This document shows, piece by piece, positions 1 to 19,033 of a stretch of DNA of 21,077 nt. The translations under genes were made by a program, and so were the position numbers. The notes beneath the pieces are model-generated. The model made no database searches. It saw only the letters and a list, made by a program, of their open reading frames with translations, and was not told the origin of the DNA. Numbering within the stretch: the stretch's first letter is position 1; each line of letters starts with the position of its first letter. The stretch spans positions 1-21,077 of IMG/VR virus record IMGVR_UViG_3300031703_000716. The stretch is one strand, 5' to 3'. This stretch comes from a virus.

Positions 1-1338
1 TCTAAGAAACCAGTTGATGAAATCAATAAACAAATTGTAAAACTTGCACCACACATTTGGAATTTAAAAATTATTGGTGGTGAACCACTTGTTATGAAGA
101 AACATTATGAATTATTAGATATGTTAATAGAGTCAGGTGAATCTAAATTCATGCAAATAAAATATCAAACAAATGGAACTGTAACTAAAGCTGGTAAGCA
201 TAACATCTTTGACTACATACCACATTTTAAAAGCTTTCTAATAACTGTATCAATTGATGGAGTTGATCAGTACAATGATTATATTAGAAGAAGATCTAGT
301 TACAACGAGATTGTAAAAAACATAAAAATGTTAAACAAACATAAGAATGTTGATATTGAATTAAATTCTGTAGTTACATTCTTTAGTGTATTGCATTTAT
401 ATAAGCTGAACAAGTTAAGTGTGAACAACACACTCTTTAACCACAACTGGTGGCGGATAGATATGCCAGCTCAAATGAAAGCAAATAACCTTCCTGATAA
501 TATAAAGGATATATTAATTCCTATATATGAAGACATTCCACACCTTAAAGAGATTGCCACCCTTCTGAGAATGCCTCCTGAACCAGACTTTAATGCTGTA
601 GAATTATACAAATATTGTCAAGCTATGGATGCATCTTATAAAGGAACTCAGTGGGAAATGGATGTATTAGATGTATTCCCAGAACTTATACCACACTACG
701 AGAGTACTCGGCCTAAAGAATCTTATTGTGTAGAATTACCAGAGATTAAAGGAGTAGTAGAATCAGTGAAGAATACTGATTGGTATTTAAATATTTTAAC
801 AGAAAAGCCAGTAGGAGAATTATGGTTCGAAGGTATTACACATCATAGGATACCAGCAGATCATCCAGTGTATAACATACTTAATAAACAGTTAATGCAT
901 GGTAGTGATACTCAAACTGTAATGACTGGAATACAAGACCCAGATAACCTACCAAAAGCTGAGGTACGTGCTTACTTAAGTGTTCAATCAGCTGGCGTAG
1001 ACTTTATACCACATACAGATACTGGATTTCATATGATCTTTCCATTTGAATTAGGGAAAGACTATGCGCTACAATACTTAAGTAATTATAATAGAGATGA
1101 AAAGGATGAAAGTAGAGTTGTGTACGAGCATAAATACAGATGTGACAAAGATAATAATGTAATAGGTATTCTACATAATGGACCAAACCATGTACATACG
1201 GTAAGGTGGAATGAACCAAAGGATAAATATTGGGTTCAAATAATATTCAATCCTTTAAATGATGATTGGGATACACTATTAGAAGAGATGGAAAATTTAA
1301 ATTTATTTAACCTAGGAGAAGATGCATGGATCAATTAA
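1..1338 (+). CDS. Radical SAM protein (5'-truncated) fused to a C-terminal 2OG-dioxygenase-like domain
   Basis: The frame is open from base 1, so the gene starts before the window; the ATG at 94 is internal, because the residues around it (GGEPLVMKKHYELL) are conserved in two paralogues downstream. The 445 residues visible begin just before the rSAM GGE motif (bases 76-84). The CX3CX2C cluster motif must lie upstream. Residues to about 240 match the genes at 2657 and 4360, including KYQTN, SIDG, DYIRRRS and YKGTxWEM. The last 200 residues are absent from those paralogues and look like a double-stranded beta-helix oxygenase of the Asp/Asn beta-hydroxylase type: H-T-D (His338, Asp340, window-frame numbering), then HVHTVRWN with distal His397/His399, then a hydrophobic strand. 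A 2-oxoglutarate-binding Arg after the distal His is not obvious. The rSAM call is firm; the oxygenase call is moderate. The substrate is unknown. Confidence 0.8.
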   Translation, partial: SKKPVDEINKQIVKLAPHIWNLKIIGGEPLVMKKHYELLDMLIESGESKFMQIKYQTNGTVTKAGKHNIFDYIPHFKSFLITVSIDGVDQYNDYIRRRSSYNEIVKNIKMLNKHKNVDIELNSVVTFFSVLHLYKLNKLSVNNTLFNHNWWRIDMPAQMKANNLPDNIKDILIPIYEDIPHLKEIATLLRMPPEPDFNAVELYKYCQAMDASYKGTQWEMDVLDVFPELIPHYESTRPKESYCVELPEIKGVVESVKNTDWYLNILTEKPVGELWFEGITHHRIPADHPVYNILNKQLMHGSDTQTVMTGIQDPDNLPKAEVRAYLSVQSAGVDFIPHTDTGFHMIFPFELGKDYALQYLSNYNRDEKDESRVVYEHKYRCDKDNNVIGILHNGPNHVHTVRWNEPKDKYWVQIIFNPLNDDWDTLLEEMENLNLFNLGEDAWIN

Positions 1339-2024
1339 CAGAATTAAGTAAAAGAAGACACATCATGACGTTCTCTGATGTAGCTCCTGCAAAGAAGCTT
1401 ATTGAAGAACTATTATGGAAGGCATGGAAGGTTACACCTTCAAAGAATAACTTTATGCCTTATCAGGTAAACGTATTAGGCCCTGACAAACAAGCTGAAA
1501 AAGTATCAGTATGGAACAAATCAAAAAAGAATAAAAAGAAAACTAATGAAACAATGATACCCGGCTCTGAGTTTAATGAGTTTAAAGAGTGGGATGATCA
1601 AGACGGTACAAACATATACTTTGATCATCTAACATCTGCACCGTATCTTTTAGTTATCACTCAAAGAGTTGAGATGGGTAATGCTATGTATCAGAAAAAT
1701 GTAAAAGAAGGTGACTATTATGAACAGATGCATGCAGATGCTTTGCCATCAATAGCAAGAGGTACTTCTATAGAGGTAGGTATGTTTGCAGCTAACCTAA
1801 CTGCATTCGCTATTGAGGCAGGAATAGATGCTTCAACTATACTTTGCTTCCCAGCTGATATAGAAGAATGGACTGACTTACCATGGGTAGAGCATGATGT
1901 ACTATTGCTTATGAGTCTTGGAAACTGTAAAGAATCTAGAAGAGAATTTATGGCAAGAACTAACCAAGTGTTGCATAAAGAAGATCTAAAACCAGAGCCA
2001 GAGAGCGTAATAAACTGGGTATAA
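1326..2024 (+). CDS. Nitroreductase-family flavoprotein
   Basis: This 232-residue protein has the family landmarks in order. RRHIMTF (residues 10-16) matches the FMN-phosphate-binding RRSxRxF. PSKNNFMPYQVNVL (about 38-51) matches PSxxNxQPWxFxVV. A later helix, GMFAANLTAFAIEAG, matches the NLxLAAxxLG segment. Family members are FMN-dependent NAD(P)H oxidoreductases that reduce nitro groups, quinones or enones, and some oxidise azolines in peptide biosynthesis. A Lys-rich insert (about residues 63-72) is unusual. The ATG overlaps the preceding rSAM gene by 13 bp and has a strong Shine-Dalgarno, AGGAG at 1314-1318, 7 nt upstream. The gene next to an rSAM gene suggests a joint redox step, but the substrate cannot be read. 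A second, more divergent nitroreductase-like gene lies at 5795. Confidence 0.72.
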   Translation: MDQLTELSKRRHIMTFSDVAPAKKLIEELLWKAWKVTPSKNNFMPYQVNVLGPDKQAEKVSVWNKSKKNKKKTNETMIPGSEFNEFKEWDDQDGTNIYFDHLTSAPYLLVITQRVEMGNAMYQKNVKEGDYYEQMHADALPSIARGTSIEVGMFAANLTAFAIEAGIDASTILCFPADIEEWTDLPWVEHDVLLLMSLGNCKESRREFMARTNQVLHKEDLKPEPESVINWV

Positions 2025-2027
2025 AGA

Positions 2028-2056
2028 TGTACAAATAAACTAAACTATGATATAAT
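2028..2056 (+). promoter_or_regulatory. Candidate sigma-70-like promoter with extended -10
   Basis: TGTACA (2028-2033, four of six matches to TTGACA) is followed by a 17-bp spacer and a perfect TATAAT (2051-2056). TG at 2048-2049 gives the TGn extended -10. It lies in the only intergenic gap of the plus-strand operon, between stop 2024 and start 2064. Transcription would begin near 2062-2064, practically on the start codon, so the mRNA would be leaderless or nearly so. No Shine-Dalgarno is visible before 2064. It would be read by host RNA polymerase, as expected of an early or middle phage promoter. The expression class is inference. Confidence 0.5.
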
Positions 2057-2063
2057 ATACTTG

Positions 2064-2660
2064 ATGTTAAAACCTAAAACTCTTATAATGTTAATTGACT
2101 TCGAAGGCCGCCCTATAATGGGTGATGAGATGACCAACGAACTTCGCTATTCATACTTAAAAGGATTACTCTTTAATGGAGTTGATGATCCAATCTATGA
2201 TCTACTTATAGTATCTGATCAAACTGATAAGCACACCAAAATGAATGAGTTAAAAAAGATGTCTGATTTGGAAGGCAAACACCAATGGTTAAATATTGAT
2301 CCTGATGACGGAACAGGTGTTGAAGACATTATAAATATGGTTAGCATGTTTGGTTATGAAATTCAAAATGTTGTTGTAGGTGGTTGTAATACTGTTGGTT
2401 GTATTTTTAATTCAACACCTTACTCATCATGCGCGTGGGCTAAGAGAGGATTTCCTGTACAGATATTTCTTCCTATGTGTGCTGATTATCAAATGAGTGG
2501 TTTAAATCAAATCGAACAAAATATGATGGCGTTTTCAGATTTATATAATGCAATTAAAAAGAATGATGTAGTTAATGAGGTTGATCCTATAAGTAGGCTA
2601 TCAGCTATATGGCTAGATCCTGAATTAAAATATGAAACTATTAGAGGAATTGGCGAATGA
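2064..2660 (+). CDS. Isochorismatase-like cysteine hydrolase
   Basis: This 198-residue protein shows LIMLIDFEG near the N-terminus, with Asp12 where the family has its catalytic Asp (IDxQ). At residues 107-113 it has GCNTVGC, then IFNST and A-W-A-K-R-G. This follows the isochorismatase-superfamily pattern GxxTxxCVxxTxxxAxxxG, so Cys113 would be the nucleophile. The catalytic Lys that normally lies between Asp and Cys is not obvious, and the N-terminal half fits poorly. Family members hydrolyse amides, ureas, isochorismate or related compounds. The TTG at 2061 is in frame just before ATG 2064; the ATG is preferred. The gene sits directly behind the promoter-like sequence at 2028-2056 and shares an ATGA overlap with the next rSAM gene. 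The fold is fairly likely; the substrate is unknown. Confidence 0.5.
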   Translation: MLKPKTLIMLIDFEGRPIMGDEMTNELRYSYLKGLLFNGVDDPIYDLLIVSDQTDKHTKMNELKKMSDLEGKHQWLNIDPDDGTGVEDIINMVSMFGYEIQNVVVGGCNTVGCIFNSTPYSSCAWAKRGFPVQIFLPMCADYQMSGLNQIEQNMMAFSDLYNAIKKNDVVNEVDPISRLSAIWLDPELKYETIRGIGE

Positions 2661-4360
2661 GTGATCAAGAGAAACAAGAATGGAGTGAAGACCTGAAGGA
2701 TTATGTAGATGAATGGAATGAACTTCCTAAATTTATGACTAGAGGTGGTCCAGGCGATCACGAATTCGAATTGTCTTTACTAGATGGTAAAGTTGATTCA
2801 TCACAATGGTTTCAAGATCAACTCAATCCAGAGAATAGCTACAACTATAATCCAGAGGTACTTGATAAAGGTACGATCGGGCAACAAGCTAAAGATCAAG
2901 AGATATTCTTTTGTGACATTCCGTTTAATCAATTGTATGTTGAAATGGATGGATCATATGCAGCATGTTGTTTTGGTGCAAAAGCAGATGGCAGAAATGG
3001 ATTACCAAAACATACTGTAAAAGATACAACCTTACAACACTGGATGGAAGAAAGCACATATATGAATGAGATCCGTGCTGAGATGTTAGATCCTAATTCT
3101 AAATTTGAGACCACAAAGAAAACATGTAAGAGATGTATCAGTGATGAAAAACGTTATGGTAGATCTAGAAGAACAGCTTGCATGAAAATACATACTAATG
3201 AACCAGACTATTGGAAAATGATTGAACAATCAGCTCAGATGTTTAAAGCAACTGGCCAATATGTTATGGAACATAGAATGATTGAAGTTCAATTAAAGGT
3301 TTACGGTGATGAGTGTAACTTAGATTGCTATATGTGTATGCATGACAATTCTTCAATACGTCAAAAGGTTGCTAACGAAGGTGTATGGAATGATTCAATA
3401 TTTGGTAACTCAGCTTGGAAGAGAGATCAAGATATAGATGTTCAATACTTTCAACCTGATGAACAGGACATTAAGGATGGCATTAGTGTAAAGGCTAAGA
3501 TTCCATTATCAAAGAATGCTAGCTCACATTTTACTAATGGTAATATCACTGGTAATAATGTAGAGTCTATGATAGAACAAACACTTTCTATGTCGAAATA
3601 CATACGAAGCATTAAGATCATCGGTGGTGAACCACTCATTATGAAAAAACATTATGAGTTATTACAGAGATTGATAGACAAAGATGAAGCTAAACATATT
3701 ATAATCAAGTATCAAACAAACCTAACTGAAACAAAGGCTGGCAAACATAATATCTTTAACTACATACCTCACTTCAAACTTGTTTGTATGGTAGCATCTG
3801 TTGATGGTGTAGGTAAAACTATTGAATACATGAGAAGAAGAACAGATTGGAAGAAGGTTATAAAGAATACTGAGTATTGCAGAAGATATGATAATGTCAA
3901 TGTTGACTTTAATGGATTAGTTTCTTTCCTAAGTGTAATGAGATTTTATGAAGTGATTGATTTTTGTTTAGACAATCCTATCATCGATCAAATAAACTGG
4001 GCTCTATTAGAAATGCCTATACACTTGAGAGTGAATAACCTACCAGAGAAAATTAAAAAAGATTTACTTCCTAAGTATGCTGCATGGCCTGATATTCAAG
4101 CAGCGCTCTCACTGCCTAACGATCCTGGTATTGATATGCAAGAGGTATTTGACTACATGTTAGATGCTGATAAATACTATAAAGGGACTAAATGGGAAAT
4201 GAATCTATTTGAAGTATTCCCTGAGTTAGAAGAATTTTATATACCGAAGCACAAGAGAAAGTTACAAGTAGTTGAAGCTACAGAAAAAGTATATACAAAT
4301 CAAGGTGAGAGAGAATTAATTGATATGTTAACATTGGTAGAGCCTACAGAGAAATATTAG
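2657..4360 (+). CDS. Radical SAM protein with N-terminal twitch/SPASM-like domain
   Basis: The protein has 567 residues. An N-terminal Cys domain comes first: Cys86 in FFCDIPF, then a Y-V-E-M-D-G-S turn, Cys104-Cys105, and Cys157xxCys160. This is the Cys pattern of a SPASM/twitch auxiliary iron-sulfur domain, but before the rSAM core rather than after it. A conserved YGRSRR link follows, then the SAM-cluster motif Cys220-x3-Cys224-x2-Cys227 (CNLDCYMC) and GGE at 323-325. About 95 residues separate cluster and GGE, longer than in the paralogue at 4360 (about 60), so there is an insert. I recall permuted N-twitch rSAM proteins as an annotated class with no known substrate. Start: ATG overlapping the previous TGA, with AGAGGA 8 nt upstream. 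It shares MTRGGPGD and a GKVD...WF segment with the paralogue. Likely cytosolic. Confidence 0.87.
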   Translation: MSDQEKQEWSEDLKDYVDEWNELPKFMTRGGPGDHEFELSLLDGKVDSSQWFQDQLNPENSYNYNPEVLDKGTIGQQAKDQEIFFCDIPFNQLYVEMDGSYAACCFGAKADGRNGLPKHTVKDTTLQHWMEESTYMNEIRAEMLDPNSKFETTKKTCKRCISDEKRYGRSRRTACMKIHTNEPDYWKMIEQSAQMFKATGQYVMEHRMIEVQLKVYGDECNLDCYMCMHDNSSIRQKVANEGVWNDSIFGNSAWKRDQDIDVQYFQPDEQDIKDGISVKAKIPLSKNASSHFTNGNITGNNVESMIEQTLSMSKYIRSIKIIGGEPLIMKKHYELLQRLIDKDEAKHIIIKYQTNLTETKAGKHNIFNYIPHFKLVCMVASVDGVGKTIEYMRRRTDWKKVIKNTEYCRRYDNVNVDFNGLVSFLSVMRFYEVIDFCLDNPIIDQINWALLEMPIHLRVNNLPEKIKKDLLPKYAAWPDIQAALSLPNDPGIDMQEVFDYMLDADKYYKGTKWEMNLFEVFPELEEFYIPKHKRKLQVVEATEKVYTNQGERELIDMLTLVEPTEKY

Positions 4361-5823
4361 TGAGCAAGAAATTAGATAATCATATGACTAAAGGCGGACC
4401 TGGAGATAAATTCTTAGGTAAAGGCAAAGTAGACACTACTAAATGGTTTGAGAATGTTCCTAACTTAGATAATCAAGTTAAGAATGAAGAGATATGGTTT
4501 TGCCCTGCACCGTTCTCATTAGCGTATACTAGTACACTAGGAGAACTCTTACCGTGTTCATGGGCTCAAGAACAAGTTGGACCTAACATTAAAAACACTA
4601 AGTTGATGGAGTACTTTCTCAGAGATAAAAGATTAAATGAATTACGTACTGAGATGACTACTGTTGGTTCTGATCTTAAGCAAGCAAGTCATACATGTTA
4701 TAATTGTAGACACCAAGAAGAAGAGTATGGAAGATCTAGACGACAGGCTTCTTTAAAGATTCAAACTAATGATCATATTCTTTGGCCACGGATACGTAGA
4801 ACTGTAGATGAATTTAGAAAGAATGGCGTTGTTCATTTAGAAGATAGAATATTTGAAGTACAAGTAAAGGTGTTTGGCAATCAATGTAACTTAGATTGTT
4901 ATATGTGTATACCATATGATTCTAGTACACGTCTTACTACAATGCATTCAGATTATCTTAAAGAAGAAAACGTTTTCTCAGATTATTCTAAACAACATAT
5001 ACCTACGCCTAAAGCTGATACTATTGATAAGGTTATAAATCAAATTGCTGATATGGCTCCATACATATATAATCTAAAACTAATTGGTGGTGAACCTTTA
5101 GTCATGAAAAAGTTTTATAAACTATTGGAAGCAGTTGTTGAAACAGGCCATGCTAAAGAGATCATGCTTAAGTACCAAACGAATATGTCTGTACTAGAGT
5201 TTGAAAAAATAAAGATATCAACGTTTATTCCTCACTTTCATCAATTCGAATTCACGGTATCATTAGATGGAATAGAAAGAGAAAATGATTATATAAGACG
5301 TAGATCTAACTGGGATAACATTGTACGAAATATGAGACATGTTAGTATATATCCAAATGTAACAATAAATATAAATGGAACTATATCATTTTTGTCAGTA
5401 CTTCGTTTTCATAGATTAATAGAATGGGCTAAAGATAACGGTGATATGATAAAGCAAATCAATTGGTCAAACATTAGAGGCCCAGCTAAAATATGTGCTA
5501 ATGTATTACCACAGAAACTTAAAGATAAACTTATTCCGTTGTATGAAGGTTTTCCTGATATACAGAATGTATTGAGAGAATCTAATCATGGCCTTGGTCA
5601 TCAAGACGCGTTAGATTACCTATTAATGGTTGATGAAAAATACAGAGGAACAGCATGGGCAATGGGTCTATTTGATATATACCCGGAACTGAAAGAGTTC
5701 CACGAACCAAAAGAAATAAAGAGAGATTCAAACTTTGAGAACGATATACAAGTAGTGAATCTAAATTTAAACTCAGATAAAAGGAGACAAAAACGTGAAC
5801 AATACGATCAAGCAAGCGGTTGA
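4360..5823 (+). CDS. Radical SAM protein with N-terminal twitch/SPASM-like domain (paralogue)
   Basis: This 487-residue protein is a paralogue of the gene just upstream, with the same order of parts. The auxiliary cluster ligands are Cys48 (WFCPAPF), Cys66 (LPCSW) and Cys113xxCys116. Next come the YGRSRR link, the rSAM motif Cys176-x3-Cys180-x2-Cys183 (CNLDCYMC), GGE at 243-245, and the shared KYQTN, SLDG, DYIRRRS and RGTAWAM segments. It has one Cys where the upstream copy has a Cys pair, and lacks that copy's insert between cluster and GGE. The C-terminal 40 residues are charged and not conserved. GTG 4360 overlaps the preceding TAG by one base and has only a weak ribosome-binding site. ATG 4384 would begin at the conserved MTKGGPGD and is a possible alternative start. 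Two adjacent copies suggest sequential or paired reactions; this is inference. Confidence 0.85.
   Translation: MSKKLDNHMTKGGPGDKFLGKGKVDTTKWFENVPNLDNQVKNEEIWFCPAPFSLAYTSTLGELLPCSWAQEQVGPNIKNTKLMEYFLRDKRLNELRTEMTTVGSDLKQASHTCYNCRHQEEEYGRSRRQASLKIQTNDHILWPRIRRTVDEFRKNGVVHLEDRIFEVQVKVFGNQCNLDCYMCIPYDSSTRLTTMHSDYLKEENVFSDYSKQHIPTPKADTIDKVINQIADMAPYIYNLKLIGGEPLVMKKFYKLLEAVVETGHAKEIMLKYQTNMSVLEFEKIKISTFIPHFHQFEFTVSLDGIERENDYIRRRSNWDNIVRNMRHVSIYPNVTININGTISFLSVLRFHRLIEWAKDNGDMIKQINWSNIRGPAKICANVLPQKLKDKLIPLYEGFPDIQNVLRESNHGLGHQDALDYLLMVDEKYRGTAWAMGLFDIYPELKEFHEPKEIKRDSNFENDIQVVNLNLNSDKRRQKREQYDQASG
5781..5786 (+). promoter_or_regulatory. Strong Shine-Dalgarno deciding the GTG start at 5795
   Basis: AAGGAG lies 8 nt before GTG 5795, inside the coding end of the rSAM gene. 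It is among the best Shine-Dalgarno sites on this strand and supports a GTG start that overlaps the preceding gene by 29 bp. The next in-frame ATG is 32 codons further in and would cut into the conserved fold. Confidence 0.7.
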
Positions 5824-6568
5824 TTCAACTAAAAAAGCACAAAGGAATTGGGATCTATCAAAAGAAATTCCTCAAGAAGACTTAGACACAATGATATACG
5901 CAGCGCAGAAGAGTCCAAAGAAACAAATGGAAACACATTTTTCTTTACATGTGTATACAGATCCAGCAACAATTAGAGCGATATATGATAACACTAAAAA
6001 GTTTTCTATATATCCTGTAGACACACCTGATGTACCTGAAGGAGAGTGGACTCCACCTGAAGGCATGTTTGAAGATGTCGATGGAAGATTTTATCAAGAC
6101 GATCATTTCTCTGTAAAGAATTCTCAGATTTTAGCTAATGCTATGTTTGTTTATTGTGAAGATAGACGTACAGTAAGAGGTGGCACACACTTCATGGCTA
6201 AAAAAGAAGGAGCATCACCGAATGTACTATCAATATATGAAGAGCAAATAGATTTTTCAATTGGTATTTCAGTTGGTCAACTATTATTATCATCAGCAAT
6301 GATGGGATATAAAACAGGTATATGTTCAGCACTCGACTCTGATATGATATCAGATATATTACCGAAAGATCCAGATGGTGACCATCAAAATCCTAAGCTT
6401 ATCATTGGTGTAGGATATGAGAATGAAGGTGTTGATAGAACTTTACATCAGGAAACTATGAACAAAGATCTACCTGAAGATAGACGTCAAGGTGATGACG
6501 ATGCACTATTTAAATTCCCTACATTTACCGGAGTAACAGACGTATATATAAATGGAGAGAAGCAGTGA
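5795..6568 (+). CDS. Divergent nitroreductase-fold protein
   Basis: The 257 residues follow the nitroreductase layout loosely. The N-terminal stretch has IPQEDLDTMIYAAQKSPKKQ, corresponding to the IPxExIxxIxxAAxxAPSxxN segment, then a short beta strand. In the middle, FSIGISVGQLLLSSAMMGYK matches the xxxxxQNLLLAAxxLG helix, followed by KTGICSA and a C-terminal IIGVGYEN strand (family: xxxIGYP). The usual RRSxRxF is degraded to QRNWDL, and the Asn of PSxxN is missing. FMN binding may therefore be altered, or the protein may be an accessory or cyclase-like relative; nitroreductase-fold proteins without redox activity are known. It follows an rSAM gene, as the nitroreductase at 1326 does, so the rSAM-nitroreductase pairing occurs twice. 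GTG start with strong AAGGAG. Confidence 0.6.
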   Translation: MNNTIKQAVDSTKKAQRNWDLSKEIPQEDLDTMIYAAQKSPKKQMETHFSLHVYTDPATIRAIYDNTKKFSIYPVDTPDVPEGEWTPPEGMFEDVDGRFYQDDHFSVKNSQILANAMFVYCEDRRTVRGGTHFMAKKEGASPNVLSIYEEQIDFSIGISVGQLLLSSAMMGYKTGICSALDSDMISDILPKDPDGDHQNPKLIIGVGYENEGVDRTLHQETMNKDLPEDRRQGDDDALFKFPTFTGVTDVYINGEKQ

Positions 6569-6960
6569 GTTCAAGCGAGGCAGCAATGAATAAACAGAAA
6601 GAAGATCAGGAACAAGAATTAACTATAGGTGAATTTAAACTAGAGATTAAACCAAGGTGTTTAACCTTTGAGCCGAAGAGTTATCATAAACCTGCTGCCT
6701 ACACTTCAGATGGATTTATGGTTCCATGCTGTTGGCTAGACGATCCAAAGAATGACTTTGGTGTAGAATACTTTGGATTAAAAGATGAACATCTTCGTGT
6801 AAAGAATGTTGAATCGATAGGTGACATATTTAGATCTGAAGAATGGAATCATTTCTTTGATACACTACTTAATAATCAAGGTCAAGCAATGAGACACTGT
6901 AAATACAAATGTGGTAATCTAAAGAAAGATAATAACTTATATATGGAATCTACAATATAA
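6565..6960 (+). CDS. Stand-alone twitch/SPASM-like iron-sulfur domain protein
   Basis: This 131-residue protein has the Cys pattern of the N-terminal domains of the rSAM proteins at 2657 and 4360. Cys32 is followed by A-Y-T-S-D-G-F, then the pair Cys55-Cys56 in VPCCW, then a GDIFRSEEW segment typical of SPASM-like domains, and finally Cys112-x3-Cys116. It has no SAM-cluster motif, so it cannot be an rSAM enzyme alone. The rSAM core is the next gene, joined by TAATG. Together the two equal one split N-twitch rSAM protein, so this one probably binds an auxiliary cluster and partners the next protein (inference). The final Cys spacing is CX3C, not the CX2C of the fused paralogues. GTG 6565 has GGAG about 7 nt upstream; ATG 6586 is an alternative start. 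Confidence 0.65.
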   Translation: MSSSEAAMNKQKEDQEQELTIGEFKLEIKPRCLTFEPKSYHKPAAYTSDGFMVPCCWLDDPKNDFGVEYFGLKDEHLRVKNVESIGDIFRSEEWNHFFDTLLNNQGQAMRHCKYKCGNLKKDNNLYMESTI

Positions 6961-9537: not shown

Positions 9538-9645
9538 CGGAGATAGTTTTACTGATAAAGACTTTAGGTCTTCTTGTTATCCAGACATGGATGTGTCATG
9601 GCCTAAGTGGCCTGATATCTTAGCAAAGAAATTAGATATGAAGCT
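8641..9645. repeat. Near-identical DNA blocks shared by the two SGNH genes
   Basis: A 29-nt block is identical at 8641-8669 and 9587-9615, and a 20-nt block is identical at 8680-8699 and 9626-9645. Both pairs are exactly 946 bp apart. They encode the shared MDVSWPKWP and KKLDMKLINL segments. Identity at synonymous sites over these runs points to a recent tandem duplication or gene conversion, since the rest of the two genes has diverged. Confidence 0.85.
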
Positions 9646-10402
9646 TATCAATTTAGCAAAGGCTGGATCAGGTAATGGTTACATCTATAACACATTGTTA
9701 GATTGTATTCAATTAGTACCTAAAGATGAAATAGGATATGTTATAGCTGGATGGTCACAATGTCAAAGAGGAGATTATCAAGAACTCGGTCATACTACTG
9801 GAGTGCTAGGTGGATTAAAGAGCACTCAAGCCGAGAGAGATAACTTCCATGCTAATATGAAAGATTCATGGGGAGGACAAGACATATATAAACCAACCGA
9901 GATGGGTGAATACGCAGTTGATAAACGTAATTGGCATCAAGATAGAATAGATCCTCGTGGCAATTTACCATATTGGGTACGTAGAACTTTAAGACATTAT
10001 GTTGGTTTACAGATGTTATGTGAAAATTATAACATACCTTATATGCAATGTCAAATGATAGATATGTATAAAGACTATATAGATGGAATGATGCCTACTG
10101 AAGAAGAAGTAGCATTTCAAGGTAAAGATCTTTATGCCGATAGACAAACATACCCAGGTGATGCAAAGGCCGATGAACAATTAATAATGAAAATTATAAT
10201 GTCATATGATGGTCATATAGATACATCAAGGGTTATAGGTTGGCCACTTACAAGAACACTAGGTGGATTTCCAATCAATCGTGGTGTAATGGGATGGAAT
10301 CAAATAGAAGAAGAGCCTTACGTTATAGATGAAAACGATAATCATCCTAACGCAGCGGGACATGAATTAATAGCGGAGTACATATATGACTGGATGGGAT
10401 AG
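9515..10402 (+). CDS. SGNH/GDSL-family hydrolase, copy 2
   Basis: This 295-residue tandem paralogue of the preceding gene has GDSFTD (Ser11), the shared MDVSWPKWP and KKLDMKLINL segments, AGSGNGYI for the Gly and Asn blocks, and ENDNHPNAAG with His277 and Asp275. The conserved YIDGMMPTEEEVAF-like and GWPLTRTLGGFP-like segments also match copy 1, so the two align over their whole length except for an indel in the middle. Keeping two copies suggests different acyl or sugar substrates, or one catalytic and one accessory copy; both retain all catalytic positions. The ATG lies inside the end of copy 1 (23-bp overlap), with CTGGAG 4 nt upstream. No export signal. Confidence 0.75.
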   Translation: MKKYLIVSGDSFTDKDFRSSCYPDMDVSWPKWPDILAKKLDMKLINLAKAGSGNGYIYNTLLDCIQLVPKDEIGYVIAGWSQCQRGDYQELGHTTGVLGGLKSTQAERDNFHANMKDSWGGQDIYKPTEMGEYAVDKRNWHQDRIDPRGNLPYWVRRTLRHYVGLQMLCENYNIPYMQCQMIDMYKDYIDGMMPTEEEVAFQGKDLYADRQTYPGDAKADEQLIMKIIMSYDGHIDTSRVIGWPLTRTLGGFPINRGVMGWNQIEEEPYVIDENDNHPNAAGHELIAEYIYDWMG

Positions 10403-11438
10403 AGATTACTTAGAAAATAAAGAAGATTACTTAGCACTATTTGATAGTGCAATGGGAAAGGAACAAGAAAGGAATATAGAATTTCTTGAGAAAAGCCTAA
10501 AGGATATAACAGGTAGAAAGTTTGCAGTTGCTTGTAGCAGCGGTACTGATGCTTTGTTATTTGCTTTAATAGGTTTAGATCTTAAATCCGATGATGAAGT
10601 ATTAGTTACTAACTTCTCTTGGATCTCTTCAGCTTCATGTGTATCATTAGCCGGTGCGGTTCCAGTGTTTTGTGATGTAGATCTAGATACATATCACATG
10701 TCATTAGATAGTATTAAGAGAATGGTGAGTGATAAAACAAAAGCAATTGTTCATCCATTTCTATTCGGTAGTATATCTGACACAACCGAGTTAAAAGAAT
10801 TCTGTGAATTTAATGGTATTGTCTTCATTGAAGATGCATGTCAAGCTTTAGGTTCTACTTACAATGGCCAGAAGGCAGGTGCAATAGGAGAGATTAGTAC
10901 ACTAAGCTTTAACGCTAACAAACAAGTTGCTGGTATCGCAGGTGGTGGTGCAGTACTTACGGATAGTAAAGAACAAGCAGTGTTATTTAGAAAATTAAGA
11001 AAGCATGGTGAACACGAAGTACTAGGATATAATTCTAAGATGCTTGGCATGAACGCTGACTTTATTGATTATAGATTATCTAAGATGGAAGGCTGGAACG
11101 CTAAGAGACAAGAGATTGCAGAGAAGTATAATGAGATAATGAGAATGTGTGAGGTTGTTATACAAGATCCAGGTGAAGAGTTACACCACACATATCATAA
11201 ATATGTTGTAAGGTTTATGAGTAAAGATATCAGAGATACAGTAAAGGAAAAACTAGGGCAGATTCATTATGCTAAACCTATATCTGAACATCCGATGTAT
11301 AACCACATTGAACATAGAAGCGATGATTGCCCAAATGCAAAAGAAATATGTGATACAATACTTACATTACCTATGCATCCATATTTGACAGACGATGAAA
11401 TATCTGAAGTCACTAATACAATTATGATACTAGCATGA
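10386..11438 (+). CDS. DegT/DnrJ/EryC1/StrS-family PLP aminotransferase
   Basis: The 350 residues show the family's fold type I PLP landmarks: ACSSGTDAL (50-57, phosphate binding), TNFSWISSA, HPFLFG, EDACQALGS with Asp150 contacting the pyridine nitrogen, and SFNANK with Lys179 as the Schiff-base lysine. AGIAGGGAV follows in place of the usual GEGG. These enzymes transaminate nucleotide-linked keto sugars to amino sugars, or act as dehydratases when the lysine is lost; here the lysine is present. A C-terminal HTYHKYVVRF strand also fits. It is slightly shorter than the usual 370-400 residues. In this cluster it would supply an amino sugar for the glycosyltransferases, although no nucleotide-sugar dehydratase is seen in the window. 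Start ATG has GGAG 7 nt upstream and overlaps the preceding gene by 17 bp. Confidence 0.9.
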   Translation: MTGWDRDYLENKEDYLALFDSAMGKEQERNIEFLEKSLKDITGRKFAVACSSGTDALLFALIGLDLKSDDEVLVTNFSWISSASCVSLAGAVPVFCDVDLDTYHMSLDSIKRMVSDKTKAIVHPFLFGSISDTTELKEFCEFNGIVFIEDACQALGSTYNGQKAGAIGEISTLSFNANKQVAGIAGGGAVLTDSKEQAVLFRKLRKHGEHEVLGYNSKMLGMNADFIDYRLSKMEGWNAKRQEIAEKYNEIMRMCEVVIQDPGEELHHTYHKYVVRFMSKDIRDTVKEKLGQIHYAKPISEHPMYNHIEHRSDDCPNAKEICDTILTLPMHPYLTDDEISEVTNTIMILA

Positions 11439-11725
11439 CATTAGATATAGTAAGTGACAAGCTTGTCGTAATCGATGATATGGGTAATATGATTGAATGG
11501 GGTGATGAATCTATTATCACTTTATATCACAATATGAAGTCAATAATAGGTGATATAAATATAAGGGAAGAGGTAGAAGAAGTTGAGCCGATATATTCTT
11601 ATATAGTAGAGAAAATATATACTATGCCAGATTATATAAAATGGAATGATACTGAATTTAAAGAGAAGCCTAAGCAAAAACTACTCATAGCATTTAACAG
11701 ATTTATATATGATAAAATTAATTGA
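11435..11725 (+). CDS. Small acidic protein of unknown function
   Basis: The 96-residue protein is not recognised. It starts MTLDIVSDKLVVIDDMGN, which reads as two short beta strands with an Asp-rich turn. It continues with a REEVEEVEP acidic patch and a helix-rich C-terminal half ending KLLIAFNRFIYDKIN. There is no Cys, signal peptide or membrane segment. It overlaps the aminotransferase by 4 bp (ATGA) and the next rSAM gene by 17 bp, so it is translated as part of the operon. Its size and place next to an rSAM gene with a SPASM-like tail could suit a peptide substrate or partner protein. However, it lacks the Cys/Gly-rich or leader-core character of typical rSAM-modified precursors, so no function is claimed. 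Confidence 0.6.
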   Translation: MTLDIVSDKLVVIDDMGNMIEWGDESIITLYHNMKSIIGDINIREEVEEVEPIYSYIVEKIYTMPDYIKWNDTEFKEKPKQKLLIAFNRFIYDKIN

Positions 11726-12548
11726 CGTACAGAATAACTATTTAGCAATAGACTTCTTTTTGACAATGACCTGTAATAAGGATTGTCATTACTGTACTAG
11801 CTATACTCTAGAACAAAGAAACCTAACGGTTGACATGGATTTCTTAAGGAGTACCTTATACTATTTAAGAGATTATAAAGTAAGATGTAACCTACTCGGC
11901 GGTGAGCCTGGGTTAGTAAAGAACTTAGATGAAGTCATTGCAGAAATCAAAAGCAATCCCAATCATGTATGTGAAGTATTATCTAACTCAACGGTTAGAA
12001 GAAGATACCCACAAGTGTTAACAGATCCTGATATAATATATGTTGAGCATATGATATTAGATTTTTATGACCACGAAATCACATTGCTAGGCCCTAAGTC
12101 ATACAAATATCATCAAGAGAATGATATGAATAATTATAACTTAGTGATTAAGACACCTAACTTTGAGAAGTACAAGCATCTATATCCTGAAGCAATGGAA
12201 CAATTAGATAATAAGAATACGTTATGGAAAGACTTTAATGGTAGAGCACCTAACTTTGGTGAGATACAGATAACAAAGCAAGCAGCCGAGATAGATAGGA
12301 AGATGTGTGCAGCCTTTCCTATGGTACCTGTTATAAACTTTGAGAATAAGAACCTAGTACATTGTAGTAAGAAGTTTGCGAACAATGCAATCACCTCTAA
12401 AGAATTTGACATAACTCAAGAGAATATAGATAAGATGATGAACTTCAGATTATTTAAGTACGAGAACTATTGTAAGACATGTACAGAATATGTACAACCG
12501 AAAGGCCATTTTAATATTAAAAAATATGCGAGCATACTAAATGACTAA
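11709..12548 (+). CDS. Radical SAM protein with C-terminal SPASM-like cysteines
   Basis: This 279-residue protein has Cys22-x3-Cys26-x2-Cys29 (CNKDCHYC) for the SAM-bound 4Fe-4S cluster and LLGGEPG with GGE at 64-66. The C-terminal part carries a Cys in MCAAFP, another in VHCSKKF and the pair Cys255-x2-Cys258 (YCKTC), in the order of a short SPASM or twitch auxiliary domain. So unlike the three long rSAM proteins in this operon, it has the normal domain order. Members with this layout modify peptides, proteins or small molecules such as aminoglycosides. It lies between a small unknown gene and the carbamoyltransferase. ATG 11709 overlaps the previous gene by 17 bp without a clear Shine-Dalgarno, so coupling to upstream translation is likely. 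The substrate is unknown. Confidence 0.85.
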   Translation: MIKLIDVQNNYLAIDFFLTMTCNKDCHYCTSYTLEQRNLTVDMDFLRSTLYYLRDYKVRCNLLGGEPGLVKNLDEVIAEIKSNPNHVCEVLSNSTVRRRYPQVLTDPDIIYVEHMILDFYDHEITLLGPKSYKYHQENDMNNYNLVIKTPNFEKYKHLYPEAMEQLDNKNTLWKDFNGRAPNFGEIQITKQAAEIDRKMCAAFPMVPVINFENKNLVHCSKKFANNAITSKEFDITQENIDKMMNFRLFKYENYCKTCTEYVQPKGHFNIKKYASILND

Positions 12549-14121
12549 GATTAAAGCAGTAGCGTTAAACCTACATGATCACAATACATATGATGGAGTG
12601 TGGCATAACCAAAGAGAAAGAGAGACACGATTTAAGCATAACTTACCTTATCGTACAGAAGCTTATGCTCATCAATCAGATGTATTAAACCCTAGTGACT
12701 ATAAACTTAATGATAAATTCACTAAAGAATATTTTGTAACACCTGATGAAGGTGTCTTAGCATTTACATATACCTACGGTGGTGTAAGAATGTCTAAAGA
12801 AGAATTACTTGAAACAGTTTTAAAAGGTCATGATGAGATATTTGATTGGGAACCTACACACTTGTGGGATCATTATCACAAAGATCAAATATACTTTATA
12901 GATCATCATCAATCACATGCCACATATGCATTTATGAATTCAGGCTTTGAGCAATCAGACTGCTTGGCTATCGATGGTATTGGTAATAGATACAGATGTT
13001 GTTTCTTTGATAAAGATGGAAAGATGACAGACCTAAGTGATGTATTACCTATTGGTTGGTTATGGAATCACATGTCAAACCTAACAGGATTCGGTACATT
13101 AGGTGCAGGTAAACTCATGGGGCTATCTGCTTATGGTAGAAGGAATGATTACTTCTATGAAATATTTGAAACAATCCTTGCTGGTCCAATAACAGAAAAG
13201 AAGCAAGAGAAGTTTGAAGAATATATTGATTTGAAAAGATATAGGAAAGAAGACTTAGCACATACTCTTCAGATATTTACAATGGATAAAATAAAAGAAT
13301 TTGTTTATCCGATGAAAAGCTGTGACAATCTTTGTGTTGCTGGTGGTGTATCTTACAATGGATATATGAATGAAGAGTTTACTAAAGTGTGGACAAATGT
13401 TTATGTCCCACCTGCTGTAGGTGATGAAGGTCAAGCTATCGGTGCATATCAACATGCTGACTATGTATTAAATGGTAACAAGCATAGAGCAGGAACATAT
13501 ATTGGTAAAGCCTATGACTTCAGGCCTAGTGTAGAAGAAGGTTTTGAATGGGGTTATAATGAATTGTTCTGGCAAGCTCTTGATGTAAAAACAATTGCTA
13601 ATGAAATTGCTGATGGCAAAACAATAGGTTGGTTTCAAGATGAATCTGAGAGTGGCAATAGAGCATTAGGCAACAGAAGTATCTTAGCAGATCCACGTAA
13701 TCCTGATATAAAAGAAATTATTAATAGTTCAATTAAAATGAGAGAAGACTTTAGACCATTTGCTCCTGCTGTAATGGAAGAACACTATCAAGAATACTTT
13801 GATACTAATCAGCCATCTCCATACATGTCAAGAATTATGCCGGTTATATCTGATAAGATTCCTGGTGTTACACACGTTGATGGAACAGCAAGAATACAGA
13901 CAGTGAGCATGGATCAAAACGTAAAGTTCTGGAATCTTATTAATGAGTTTCGTAAAGTAACAGGTATACCTATGTTATTAAACACTAGCTTTAATTCACA
14001 AGAACCTATTGTAGAAAGTCCAATGCATGCTATCAGAACCTTTAGAGAATCAGCTATAGATATACTAGTAATTAACGAATGGATGTTAATTAAAAAAGTT
14101 GAAGGCGATGGCTGGAGTTAA
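12541..14121 (+). CDS. Carbamoyltransferase, NodU/CmcH family
   Basis: The 526 residues contain both family domains. The N-terminal Kae1-like part has RERETRFKH, the metal-binding DHHQSHA (His122, His123, His126), AIDGIGN, GKLMGLSAYGR and VAGGVSYNGYMN. The C-terminal YrdC-like part, which forms carbamoyl-adenylate from carbamoyl phosphate and ATP, has GWFQDESESGNRALGNRSIL (family GxxQGxxExGPRALGNRSIL), ADPR, REDFRPFAPAV and LNTSFN. GPRALG has become GNRALG, a mild change. The very N-terminus is shorter than in classic members. Members transfer a carbamoyl group to a hydroxyl of a sugar or antibiotic, as in NodU on Nod factors and CmcH on cephems. Here the acceptor is probably a sugar from the same operon. 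ATG overlaps the rSAM stop by 8 bp. Confidence 0.93.
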   Translation: MTKIKAVALNLHDHNTYDGVWHNQRERETRFKHNLPYRTEAYAHQSDVLNPSDYKLNDKFTKEYFVTPDEGVLAFTYTYGGVRMSKEELLETVLKGHDEIFDWEPTHLWDHYHKDQIYFIDHHQSHATYAFMNSGFEQSDCLAIDGIGNRYRCCFFDKDGKMTDLSDVLPIGWLWNHMSNLTGFGTLGAGKLMGLSAYGRRNDYFYEIFETILAGPITEKKQEKFEEYIDLKRYRKEDLAHTLQIFTMDKIKEFVYPMKSCDNLCVAGGVSYNGYMNEEFTKVWTNVYVPPAVGDEGQAIGAYQHADYVLNGNKHRAGTYIGKAYDFRPSVEEGFEWGYNELFWQALDVKTIANEIADGKTIGWFQDESESGNRALGNRSILADPRNPDIKEIINSSIKMREDFRPFAPAVMEEHYQEYFDTNQPSPYMSRIMPVISDKIPGVTHVDGTARIQTVSMDQNVKFWNLINEFRKVTGIPMLLNTSFNSQEPIVESPMHAIRTFRESAIDILVINEWMLIKKVEGDGWS

Positions 14122-14924
14122 TGAATAACAATTTTAAATTAAAGCCTTACGAAGATTCTAAACTTGAAGTTAGTAGAGATGATTTAGTATTCATTAAGAA
14201 TATAATGAAGCTATCTAATACAGATGATGTAAACTTTAGTTTGCTTGATAATGTATTTAATGCAATGGAACATGATACCATATATAGATCTGATATCATT
14301 GATTCATTTAGTTATAATCAGATGCAATCAAAATCATTAATAGTTAAACACTTAAATGATCTCAATCTTTTAAACAAAGATACCGAAGTTGTTATATGGG
14401 GTTGTTGGTATGGAAGTATTATTATACCATTGCTACATGATAAGGTTAAAAAGATTACAGCAATTGATACGGATAGCCAAGCTATTACAACTGGTGAGAA
14501 TAGAATACTTGCTGGTTACGATAACGTTGAATGGATAACAGCTAACGTCTTTGATGACTATAGAGATATGTATGATACTGCTGACATCTTTATTAATACC
14601 TCGTGTGAACATATGCGTCCAATGAAATGGTGGGGACCGAAAGGCCCTAGAGGAGATCACAATTGGTTTAAAGAATGGAATGGAAAGTACCAGCATAATG
14701 ATAAGTTATGGCCAGTTTATAAAGAAGCCTGGTGGGATAGAGTTAAACCTACTGCTCACTTTGCCTTTACCTCTAATGATATGGATGCTATCGAGGGTCA
14801 TACTAATTGTGTGCACAGCATAGAAGAGTTTAAACTACAACTACCACCCCGGTCAGAAGTGCTGATAGATGATGCTTTGGTAGACGACAGAGGTACCAGA
14901 TACATATTAATAGGAAAGGTATGA
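14121..14924 (+). CDS. Class I SAM-dependent methyltransferase
   Basis: This 267-residue protein has a helical N-terminal region of about 85 residues, then the Rossmann-type core. Motif I is TEVVIWGCWYGS (Gly94-x3-Gly98; the usual GxGxG has become G-C-W-Y-G). The acidic end of strand 2 is AIDTD with Asp116, expected to bind the ribose of SAM. VEWITANVFDD supplies the adenine-contact segment, and IFINTSCEHM the motif IV region. A Trp/Gly-rich loop (KWWGPKGPRG) follows, probably over the substrate site. It may methylate a sugar or a small molecule made by the cluster. Start ATG shares TAATG with the carbamoyltransferase stop and has GGAG at 14114-14117. A DNA or RNA methyltransferase is unlikely because no NPPY or DPPY motif is present. 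Confidence 0.75.
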   Translation: MNNNFKLKPYEDSKLEVSRDDLVFIKNIMKLSNTDDVNFSLLDNVFNAMEHDTIYRSDIIDSFSYNQMQSKSLIVKHLNDLNLLNKDTEVVIWGCWYGSIIIPLLHDKVKKITAIDTDSQAITTGENRILAGYDNVEWITANVFDDYRDMYDTADIFINTSCEHMRPMKWWGPKGPRGDHNWFKEWNGKYQHNDKLWPVYKEAWWDRVKPTAHFAFTSNDMDAIEGHTNCVHSIEEFKLQLPPRSEVLIDDALVDDRGTRYILIGKV

Positions 14925-15787
14925 AAAGAATAATATATAGTATCTACGTTGACATACCAGCGGCTGAACACTATGGCACCACAAGTAAAAGCAAATGGGA
15001 TACTGAAGAGAAAGCAGAGATCACTGTTGATGCTTTTAAAATACACTATGACAGATTAAAGCAATGCAAATTAGATTACGCTAAACGTATAGGTGTACCA
15101 TTTAAAATGTATGAATACGATAATCGATATAGAGAATTCGAAAAGAAATTTACAGAAGACCATCCTGAAGTAACTGGATATGAAGTAATAAACTTTTATA
15201 AGATCCATGTGCTTGAACAGTTATCACAGGGTTATGACGAGATTCTATACCTAGACTTTGATGCTATACCTATGCCTAATGCAGATTGCTTCTTTGATCA
15301 TCATGATCTTAGCAAGGGTATGTGTGTCTTAGATAATAATGATAAGATTGTTCATGATGTAAGAGCTAGTCAAAGTATACGTAGTCCATCAGCAAAGTAT
15401 TATAATTGTCAAGCCATGTTATTAGATGGTGGTTATCATCCTAATAATGATGTAATCAATACTGGAATTATCCTTGCTACTAAAGAACAGGTAAAGCAGC
15501 TAGATTACTTTGGTCATTTTAGAGAGACAATGGATCTCATGACAGCATTAAGAAGCGATCAATATAGAGAAGCTAATGTATACCCTGAAAATATTGTTGA
15601 TATGTTTCGATATGATAATGAAACAATCTTCTCATACAAAATAAAAGTAAACGCAGTTCCTGTACAATGGCTTAGTCCTACATGGCATTACTTCTTTGAC
15701 AATCAAAAGTTCGTTCCTGGATACGCAAAGGTAGTACACGCAATCTGTAAAGACTTTGATTGTGTATGGCGAAGATACGATGCTTAA
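14921..15787 (+). CDS. Glycosyltransferase-like protein, GT-A fold (first of three)
   Basis: The 288 residues begin with a strand (MKRIIYSIYVDIP) and reach EILYLDFDAIPM at 107-117, where Asp112-x-Asp114 is the DXD motif that binds a metal and nucleotide sugar. The DVINTGIILA segment (about 177-186) is typical of GT-A enzymes such as GT8-like families, where the NTG loop lines the acceptor site. The C-terminal VQWLSPTWHYFF and VVHAICKDF segments place a late His in the position often used for metal binding. No signal peptide or membrane helix is visible, so it acts in the cytosol. It is the first of three adjacent GT-A-like genes with little mutual similarity outside the DXD region, fitting stepwise addition of different sugars. 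ATG overlaps the previous stop by 4 bp, with AGGAAAGG upstream. Confidence 0.75.
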   Translation: MKRIIYSIYVDIPAAEHYGTTSKSKWDTEEKAEITVDAFKIHYDRLKQCKLDYAKRIGVPFKMYEYDNRYREFEKKFTEDHPEVTGYEVINFYKIHVLEQLSQGYDEILYLDFDAIPMPNADCFFDHHDLSKGMCVLDNNDKIVHDVRASQSIRSPSAKYYNCQAMLLDGGYHPNNDVINTGIILATKEQVKQLDYFGHFRETMDLMTALRSDQYREANVYPENIVDMFRYDNETIFSYKIKVNAVPVQWLSPTWHYFFDNQKFVPGYAKVVHAICKDFDCVWRRYDA

Positions 15788-16517
15788 GATATGTACGGTA
15801 TACTATAACGATCAATATACTCCTGACTATGTAGGTAAGCTATATGATAGTATAAGAAGGAACTCATCTATTCCATTCCAATCTGTATGCATAAGCGATG
15901 ATCCTAACGTTGAAGCTGATATAGTACTACCATATAATCACTATGACAAAGTTAAAAAGCATTGGCATAAACTAAAATTCTTCTCTTCACACTTTGGTTA
16001 CCAAGAACCAGGGGATGATATCATAATCATGGATATAGATCAAGTGATCACGAGCAACGTGGATGATCTCATAGGCCATCCAGTGCATGATAACGAATTA
16101 GTTACTTATGGTATATGGTGGAGATCTAAGCTGCATACAAACGGTGGATTCTATAAATTCAAATCTGGTTCTTTAGAATATGTATGGGATGACTTCATTG
16201 AGAATCCTGAGTATTGGCAAATGCATTACTACAATGAAAGAGAAGTACACTTCCCATACTATGGTGAACAGAACTATGTTAACTGGAGAACAGACGAACA
16301 TAATATAACATTAACTAAAACACCACCTCAATGGATAGGTAAATGTGATATCGATATTAAAGAAGATACTATAAACAACAGAATATATAATGAAAAATTT
16401 GGTGGTTATATGTTTATGGACAATGTAAATACTGACATTAAGGTGATACATTTTACAGGTCCAGGTAATACTATACACAAGAATCGTAATGGATGGATTA
16501 AGGATTACTGGAAATGA
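15780..16517 (+). CDS. Glycosyltransferase-like protein, GT-A fold (second of three)
   Basis: This 245-residue protein starts at ATG 15780, giving MLKICTVYYND, a normal first beta strand. An in-frame TTG at 15756 would add eight residues but has no ribosome-binding site and extends further into the upstream gene. Motifs: HKLKFFSSHF before IIIMDIDQVI, with Asp85-x-Asp87 as DXD; then the HTNGGFYKFKSG acceptor-loop segment; GEQNYVNW; and a C-terminal KVIHFTGPGN, where the His would complete the metal site. The order matches GT8-like or related retaining GT-A enzymes. It overlaps the first glycosyltransferase by 8 bp and the third by 4 bp. The sugar donor cannot be told from sequence. Confidence 0.75.
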   Translation: MLKICTVYYNDQYTPDYVGKLYDSIRRNSSIPFQSVCISDDPNVEADIVLPYNHYDKVKKHWHKLKFFSSHFGYQEPGDDIIIMDIDQVITSNVDDLIGHPVHDNELVTYGIWWRSKLHTNGGFYKFKSGSLEYVWDDFIENPEYWQMHYYNEREVHFPYYGEQNYVNWRTDEHNITLTKTPPQWIGKCDIDIKEDTINNRIYNEKFGGYMFMDNVNTDIKVIHFTGPGNTIHKNRNGWIKDYWK

Positions 16518-17080
16518 GAAGAATAATATGTTGTAGATTCGGTGATAAGTTTACTCAATGGCATGTTGATAACTTAAAGCATATGATAGACACTTACTCA
16601 GGTATAGAATACGATGAGTTTGTAGTTATCGAAGAAGACCTATATGGTAATTGGTATAATAAATTTCAGATGTATGATAAGTTTAGGGATGGTGAGAATC
16701 TTTATTTTGATTTAGATATGATTATCTATGGTTACCTACCTGATCTATTTAGAGAGAAGTTCACCTTACTAGATGATAAATGGTGGAGAGAACCTGCACA
16801 TACACCTCTAAACTCTTCTATCGTTTCTTGGACAGGAGATGTATCTTATATCTGGGAGAAGTTTTGGCCGTACGCTGATGCCTATATGAAACAATATAGC
16901 AAAGGTAGTGATGAGTGGTATTATAAGGAAATGGAATACGAGATGTATAATCCAGTGTGTCCGAAGTTTAATATCAAAGAACGTGATCCTAACTTCAATG
17001 TGTGCACCTTAGGTCAGATGCACCATATACTTGAAGAGGGTTGGACCGGTTGGTGGTCACCCTACTTACTTAAGTCTTAG
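16514..17080 (+). CDS. Short glycosyltransferase-like protein, GT-A fold (third of three)
   Basis: The 188 residues resemble the preceding gene in layout: an MRRIICCRFGD first strand, a WYNKFQMYD helix before ENLYFDLDMIIYG, with Asp66-x-Asp68 as DXD, then LNSSIVSWTGD in the acceptor-loop position. It is about 60 residues shorter than its neighbour. The C-terminal part has LGQMHHILEEGWTGWWSPY, a Trp-rich ending with a His pair, instead of the usual HFxG strand. It could be a compact active enzyme or a reduced paralogue. It is the last gene of the plus-strand operon, and its TAG overlaps the stop of the opposing gene, so no terminator separates them. Confidence 0.65.
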   Translation: MRRIICCRFGDKFTQWHVDNLKHMIDTYSGIEYDEFVVIEEDLYGNWYNKFQMYDKFRDGENLYFDLDMIIYGYLPDLFREKFTLLDDKWWREPAHTPLNSSIVSWTGDVSYIWEKFWPYADAYMKQYSKGSDEWYYKEMEYEMYNPVCPKFNIKERDPNFNVCTLGQMHHILEEGWTGWWSPYLLKS

Positions 17081-18964: not shown

Positions 18965-18971
18965 AGTTTAG

Positions 18972-18975
18972 TCCT
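18972..18975 (-). promoter_or_regulatory. Shine-Dalgarno for the 302-residue virion-type gene
   Basis: AGGA on the minus strand lies 7 nt before ATG 18964. Together with the late-type promoter at 18988-18995 it forms a complete, compact expression signal, with a 5' leader of about 17-20 nt. Confidence 0.65.
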
Positions 18976-18984
18976 GTTGTATAA

Positions 18985-19024: not shown

Positions 19025-19033
19025 ATGTTAATA

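Follow-up and report, generated by a model that had tools for sequence, protein, structure and literature searches.

What would a marine phage make with 17 kb of tightly packed enzyme genes, and where would the product go? The question is raised by the IMG/VR virus record IMGVR_UViG_3300031703_000716, a stretch of 21,077 bp that we analyzed at its full length (the window). Nineteen plus-strand genes, named A to S, fill positions 1-17080, and 17 of their 18 junctions overlap by 1-32 nt, the only non-overlapping one being B-C (gap of 36 nt), much as an earlier sequence-only reading of this DNA had described. The convergent minus-strand genes U, V, and X start at 17.3 kb, to the right of the operon. 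We propose that this cassette encodes a soluble pathway that would make a carbamoylated and methylated, amino-sugar-like glycan and decorate V with it, a proposal that we consider evenly balanced as a whole. Since no membrane machinery is evident but a change to the lipopolysaccharide (LPS) core is possible, we hold the type of pathway (glycan tailoring) with fair confidence and the choice of V as the acceptor more tentatively, a shade short of an even call.

V (18056..18964, minus strand) is a Ser/Thr-rich (22.8%) protein of the fibre region carried by 557 viral contigs, and U (17343..18056, minus strand) lies between V and the cassette, which it adjoins in either orientation. Among 48 non-redundant loci anchored on V, 47 contained a cassette glycosyltransferase, 45 a methyltransferase, 45 a radical S-adenosylmethionine (rSAM) gene, and 45 U; relative to the adjacent U/V genes, the cassette was convergent in 44 cases and co-oriented in 7. 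Loci anchored on S, with V present in 36 of 80, at first seemed to break this link. In those S loci lacking V that could be checked, V was located at the far end of an inverted cassette, beyond the 10-kb reach, or the contig ended; the others had different genes past S, and the end bearing f8, the protein family that heads the usual gene order, was not visible. Because of this ambiguity we changed the anchor to VrlC (family f22, identified by its match to VrlC of phages HTVC008M and Mosig), which also served as a hot-spot control, in that loci were gathered by VrlC alone and 36 non-redundant ones had enough room. Sugar genes were found in 9/9 loci with V and in 1/27 loci without it (Fisher p = 1e-7, shared ancestry ignored), and the single exception retains U and an epimerase gene, f16. 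At the syntenic site downstream of VrlC, both V/U and the cassette are absent from HTVC008M and Melnitz. At this site, V and the cassette occur together or not at all. The order in relatives is VrlC-f18-f17-V-U-cassette, of which the window extends no further than X; the bounds of 1-17080 proposed by the sequence-only reading thus cover the cassette genes and leave the conserved partners U and V outside.

Within the cassette, N is the most conserved and most diagnostic gene. It is encoded by ~290 IMG/VR contigs. Among the 63 non-redundant loci in which synteny was counted, 53 have L or L-M immediately upstream of N and 43 have O immediately downstream, the usual order being f8, [rSAM/SPASM pair], SGNH, DegT, M, N, [nitroreductase, twitch rSAM], O, P, Q, R, S. 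This order is kept in dozens of non-redundant marine phage contigs, so independent occurrence in relatives, which would have told against the earlier idea of conserved co-occurrence, is not what we see. SGNH protein, DegT aminotransferase, twitch rSAM, carbamoyltransferase, methyltransferase, and glycosyltransferases form the core, and about half of the 19 window genes are optional in relatives (the twitch rSAMs D/E, the nitroreductases, the PP-loop protein, hydrolase C, and the H/G pair). These optional genes make up the long left half of the window, which explains why the operon looks so rich. With about half of the genes optional and no nucleotide-sugar synthesis encoded in the window, the suggestion that this is a complete biosynthetic route is not supported. 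Every gene tested (B-S) showed a lower nonsynonymous (dN) than synonymous (dS) divergence from relatives.

Three kinds of gene fusion argue for a single pathway, as had been supposed from the packing of the genes. GT-B protein f8 is joined to a twitch rSAM in four versions, one of which also has an oxygenase-like domain (971 aa); rSAM E is joined to carbamoyltransferase O in 26 open reading frames (ORFs) of 945-978 aa; and DegT protein L is joined to M in 45 ORFs, Mosig among them. By their predicted domains, the fusions physically tie sugar transfer, radical chemistry, and carbamoylation. A structural model of f8 (pLDDT 83.5) has a GT-B fold, matching PimA (Z 14.0), TarM (13.6), SdgB (12.9), and T4 alpha-glucosyltransferase (12.9). 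In a 715-aa GT-B+rSAM version (L053:1390-3537, L049:2996-5143), the rSAM domain looks catalytically dead or degenerate because the CxxxCxxC and GGEP motifs are lost, while the GT-B half is retained.

Families of the window genes were assigned with Pfam, NCBIfam, PHROGs, and motif inspection. L (10386..11438, plus strand as are all cassette genes) is a core DegT-family aminotransferase (Pfam DegT 1.3e-80) with an invariant K179, whose best solved relative is 7b0d, annotated as glutamine--scyllo-inositol transaminase (1.7e-83), followed by the sugar aminotransferases QdtB and WbpE. It is followed by M (11435..11725), a small protein that is joined to the L C-terminus in many relatives including Mosig. 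The twitch rSAM N (11709..12548; dN 0.032 and dS 0.52 against L095) carries the motif CNKDCHYC and four extra invariant cysteines, C200, C219, C255, and C258 (C-x18-C-gap-C-x2-C), which agree at the motif level with the four-cysteine auxiliary cluster of BtrN (PMC9012708). Its model (mean pLDDT 70) matches SuiB (Z 13.2), BlsE (12.5), and BtrN (11.4). O (12541..14121) is a core NodU/TobZ-type O-carbamoyltransferase (Pfam Carbam_trans_C 1.2e-63, _N 4.4e-22), the nearest PDB relatives of which are GdmN, novobiocin carbamoyltransferase, and TobZ (E-values of 8e-63 to 5e-54). The remaining core genes are P (14121..14924), a SAM-dependent methyltransferase with weak matches (NCBIfam 3e-4, Methyltransf_25 0.017); Q (14921..15787), a GT8-like glycosyltransferase (Glyco_transf_8 8.8e-4) in which D112-F-D114 is invariant; and the GT-A type glycosyltransferases R (15756..16517; phrog_1962 2.5e-11, invariant D-I-D) and S (16514..17080; phrog_1962 2.8e-4, invariant D66-L-D68), the sole library match of both being the PHROG "glycosyltransferase" and their DxD motifs being conserved. 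PDB profile searches returned nothing for the twitch rSAMs E/D, f8, or Q, and nothing significant for R or I. Inspection of ORFs of 60 aa or longer, shorter ones not having been searched, turned up no candidate gene for the precursor of a ribosomally synthesized and post-translationally modified peptide.

Taken together, we envisage the cassette as soluble cytoplasmic glycan tailoring encoded in a host-recognition region. The sugar would be drawn from host nucleotide-sugar pools, and the twitch rSAM enzymes would oxidize or otherwise activate its C-H bonds. L could then transaminate the ketone left by the rSAM step, just as BtrN is thought to supply an aminotransferase in butirosin biosynthesis. 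O would carbamoylate and P would methylate, J and K may attach or trim acyl groups, and further variety in the product may come from the optional oxygenase-like domain, PP-loop protein, and nitroreductases. Transfer of the sugars would fall to a GT-B enzyme (the A N-terminus or f8) and to the GT-A enzymes Q, R, and S. The most likely acceptor would be the neighboring V, in which case the product would be a variable virion glycan for adsorption or for evading recognition. We counted in favor of this reading that the closest relatives of L and O are sugar aminotransferases and O-carbamoyltransferases, respectively, that an NDP-sugar epimerase gene (f16) lies between U and V in many relatives (NAD-dependent; L149:12463-13194; it is not in the window), and that a UDP-glucose dehydrogenase lies beside distant cassettes. 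The broader claim that SAR11-type phages build such a carbamoylated, methylated amino-sugar glycan by rSAM chemistry and attach it to a dedicated V, as a modular form of surface variation without a described counterpart, is one that we put forward as speculative and rather unlikely to hold in full.

Several observations weigh against decoration of V by such a glycan. The enzyme roles and the product are predictions from gene sequence; V had no family match in the library search, and position is the sole guide to its place in the virion. Matches of the N fold to SuiB (peptide), viperin (nucleotide), BlsE, MoaA, and BtrN are of similar quality, so that sugar and peptide substrate classes are not separable by fold. 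A distant group of cassettes (L055, L059; contigs G003, G011) lacks Q, R, S, U, and V and has instead a UDP-glucose dehydrogenase-like gene (G011), SGNH proteins, and glycosyltransferase-like genes on the convergent strand. The cassette boundary was not visible in 38 of 95 N loci, and the loci are phylogenetically non-independent. Finally, the U/V linkage would also follow if the cassette changed a receptor to which V binds. That last point leads to the somewhat unlikely alternative that the cassette modifies the LPS core or a surface glycan of the host, thereby blocking superinfection by phages sharing V's receptor. It would likewise predict the link if V recognizes the altered glycan, Q is GT8-like, and modification of O-chains by pelagimyophage glycosyltransferases is the published view of the island, as proposed in PMC7029224, where GT8 and the near-absence of restriction systems in SAR11 are also noted. 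However, no flippase, polymerase, GtrA-like, or membrane protein is found in any cassette family (no hydropathy segment >1.9, hence no transmembrane segment), which argues against O-antigen assembly or gtr-type conversion, though soluble cytosolic enzymes could still modify the LPS core at the cytoplasmic face, and all-or-none pairing with one virion-region gene is at least equally natural for an acceptor.

The rSAM proteins might instead be SPASM-type protein modifiers that cross-link or oxidize V or some other fibre protein, the sugars being attached in a separate process; the cassette would then serve post-translational modification of virion proteins and would not be a sugar pathway. SPASM enzymes mostly act on peptides, SuiB (Z 13.2) is the best fold match of N, an rSAM gene accompanies V in 45 of 48 loci, and an oxygenase-like domain lies beside the rSAM core in A. 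We nevertheless regard this explanation as improbable, as relatives join rSAM domains to a GT-B glycosyltransferase or to an O-carbamoyltransferase in one protein, and in 53 of 63 loci the neighbor of N is an aminotransferase of the sugar type. A pathway that has nothing to do with the virion and yields a small molecule or a modified nucleotide (such as an aminoglycoside-like antibiotic or a 7-deazaguanine-like base) is very improbable; it could account for the resemblance of PP-loop protein I to QueC and for DegT, TobZ-like, and BtrN-like enzymes being found in antibiotic pathways, but not readily for a cassette that tracks a fibre-region gene, that has I in just 17 of 63 loci, and in which no QueD, FolE, QueE, or scyllo-inosose synthase appears among the Pfam matches of the 19 genes. 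Already disfavored, and scarcely credible, is the notion that there is no dedicated system and that a recombination hot spot gathers unrelated metabolic genes beside tail fibres. The region has been called hypervariable (PMC7029224), and accessory genes are gained and lost among relatives, but the core order is conserved, the fusions recur, purifying selection is seen, and phages without V that have the same flanking genes almost never have sugar genes.

The cassette belongs to phages, as had been supposed. The core cassette lies beside tail genes in the cultured Pelagibacter phage Mosig EXVC030M (PMC7892664), the only relative with a known host (HTCC1062), and of 50,697 phage records it is the only one matched by each of N, R, S, U, and V. 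Of the long relatives, one contig (G013) has T4-like baseplate genes and another (G003) has genes for a portal protein and an SbcC-like protein. Pfam searches of the longer relatives for terminase and Gp23 gave no match, and the Gp23 control likewise matched nowhere, so phage identity is shown by the baseplate, portal, and SbcC-like genes. The phages that host the cassette are T4-like marine phages (pelagimyophage-like, Kyanoviridae), relatives of the phages known from SAR11 hosts. We rejected a bacterial origin or a misassembly next to tail genes: N was matched in 3 of 84,980 species' genomes, each time in a contig of a marine metagenome-assembled genome (L092, L093, L094; bins of Gammaproteobacteria, Pelagibacter, and Rhodobiaceae), two of these contigs have phage U/V adjoining while the third is too short to reveal its flank, and the isolate Mosig carries the cassette. 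The two contigs with U/V are probably phage contigs in bacterial bins. Mosig also has a divergent adjacent operon (L091:9702-15955) with Asp/Arg hydroxylase-like, acetyltransferase, TauD-like, FMN reductase, aminotransferase, and fatty-acid desaturase genes.

The sequence-only reading had been unable to match the locus to a described system, which proved too strong. Pelagimyophage host recognition clusters with glycosyltransferases and rSAM gene cassettes have been published (Zaragoza-Solas et al., 2020; PMC7029224), and the present locus shares their place between VrlC/tail and neck genes, their richness in glycosyltransferases (Q, R, S, and GT-B f8/A), and a relative, Mosig, with the core cassette. 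That account, in the part considered here, treats the island as hypervariable and LPS-related and does not describe the DegT-rSAM-carbamoyltransferase-methyltransferase-glycosyltransferase core, the fusions, or the V pairing. The type of island is already known, but in the open-license literature we came across no account of the conserved gene set, of its fusions, or of its association with V, and no paper joining phage and rSAM with carbamoyltransferase or nitroreductase. T4-like marine phages also include cyanophages with LPS gene clusters and stand-alone carbamoyltransferases (Sullivan et al., 2010; PMC3037559), so that both sugar genes and a carbamoyltransferase are shared with the present locus, but the carbamoyltransferases of P-RSM4 and AG-345-O18 are found without other cassette genes, apart from a weak f16 epimerase match in AG-345-O18.

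Twitch rSAM, DegT, and O-carbamoyltransferase types also recall sugar enzymes and aminoglycoside tailoring (BtrN, BtrS-type DegT, TobZ); unlike a 2-deoxystreptamine-type pathway, the 19 genes give no Pfam match to 2-deoxy-scyllo-inosose synthase, and the glycosyltransferases and the location point to a phage surface glycan rather than an aminoglycoside. Similarly, phage glycosyltransferases near host-recognition functions recall gtrABC-type O-antigen conversion, but the cassette has no membrane flippase, polymerase, or membrane glycosyltransferase of gtr or Wzx/Wzy systems, and, unlike in the 7-deazaguanine pathway, the QueC-like protein stands alone, with no QueD/FolE/QueE match. In mycobacteriophages, capsid and tail glycosylation involves glycosyltransferases encoded beside virion genes, an arrangement seen here as well, where the acceptor is proposed from the genes alone. 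We know of no rSAM, DegT, or carbamoyltransferase chemistry in phage virion glycosylation. SAR11 bacteria and their phages rank among the most abundant organisms of the sea. If V is decorated as proposed, phages would be using rSAM enzymes for glycan chemistry on their virions, the function of a hypervariable host-recognition island could be tested in an existing isolate (Mosig on HTCC1062), and the cassette would offer new rSAM enzymes that act on sugars and are naturally fused to glycosyltransferase and carbamoyltransferase.

Of the enzymes named by the sequence-only reading, most were recovered. Pfam, NCBIfam, and PHROGs back its five rSAM genes (A, D, E, H, N), with CxxxCxxC seen in D, E, H, and N and the position of the motif in A falling past the contig edge; family matches support the two nitroreductases (B, F), the aminotransferase, and the carbamoyltransferase; matches to the PP-loop protein I, the SGNH proteins J and K, the methyltransferase P, and Q are weak but plausible; and the three glycosyltransferases stand on the weak GT8 match of Q and on the PHROG match and DxD motifs of R and S. 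A cysteine hydrolase (C) and a dioxygenase-like domain (end of A) found no library support. A (1..1338) comprises the C-terminal 445 aa of a larger protein, with a twitch-type rSAM core (Radical_SAM 2.4e-9) and an HxD...H oxygenase-like C-terminal domain, a label given by motif only as this end had no Pfam match even at an E-value of 5. Its homologue in L014 (971 aa; 59% identity over 444 aa) bears CNLDCHMC and the f8 GT-B domain, and A is the C-terminal portion of the GT-B glycosyltransferase-rSAM-oxygenase-like fusion found in relatives. Two features were lacking in the earlier gene list, namely that A is cut at the left contig edge and that G is a SPASM half pairing with H.

The other left-half genes begin with B (1326..2024), an accessory nitroreductase-fold flavoenzyme (Pfam Nitroreductase 1.9e-7) present in 30 of 63 loci, and C (2061..2660), an accessory 199-aa protein present in 12 of 63 that by eye is possibly an isochorismatase-like hydrolase and has no Pfam match at an E-value of 5. 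D (2657..4360; accessory) and E (4360..5823; fused to O in many relatives) are rSAM proteins with an N-terminal twitch domain (NCBIfam NF033640 N_Twi_rSAM, 7.8e-84, above the cut-off, and 6.9e-83, respectively), and F (5795..6568) is a second, accessory nitroreductase-fold protein (Pfam 6.9e-6). G (6565..6960; SPASM 0.0037), a stand-alone SPASM/twitch half, invariably adjoins its partner H (6960..7736; Radical_SAM 8.5e-10; CILRCPQC; dN 0.064 and dS 0.72 against L095), an rSAM core. This split into core (H) and SPASM (G or f6) genes occurs in the window (6565-7736) and in L101:6625-7698, and a single-chain rSAM+SPASM version, f38, exists in relatives. J (8569..9537; weak GDSL match, 0.013) is an SGNH-type hydrolase or acyltransferase with invariant Ser and D-x-H-P triad residues, and K (9515..10402; GDSL 3e-4) is its SGNH paralogue (both in alignment A6). 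I (7736..8572) is an accessory PP-loop ATPase with a QueC-like C-terminal Cys motif (QueC 3.8e-6; PHROG QueC-like 1e-7), in which SGGxDS and the terminal cysteines are almost invariant in the alignment; two more PP-loop families with QueC-like terminal cysteines, f36 (L114:3912-4781) and f56 (L010:9340-9993), were found in relatives.

At the right end of the window, X (19034..21076, minus strand) is a repetitive tail-fibre protein (phrog_892 tail fiber protein, 5.7e-58). G+C content rises from ~34% across the operon to 37-40% in the fibre genes, and the GC skew switches where the strand changes (both within 17000-21000).

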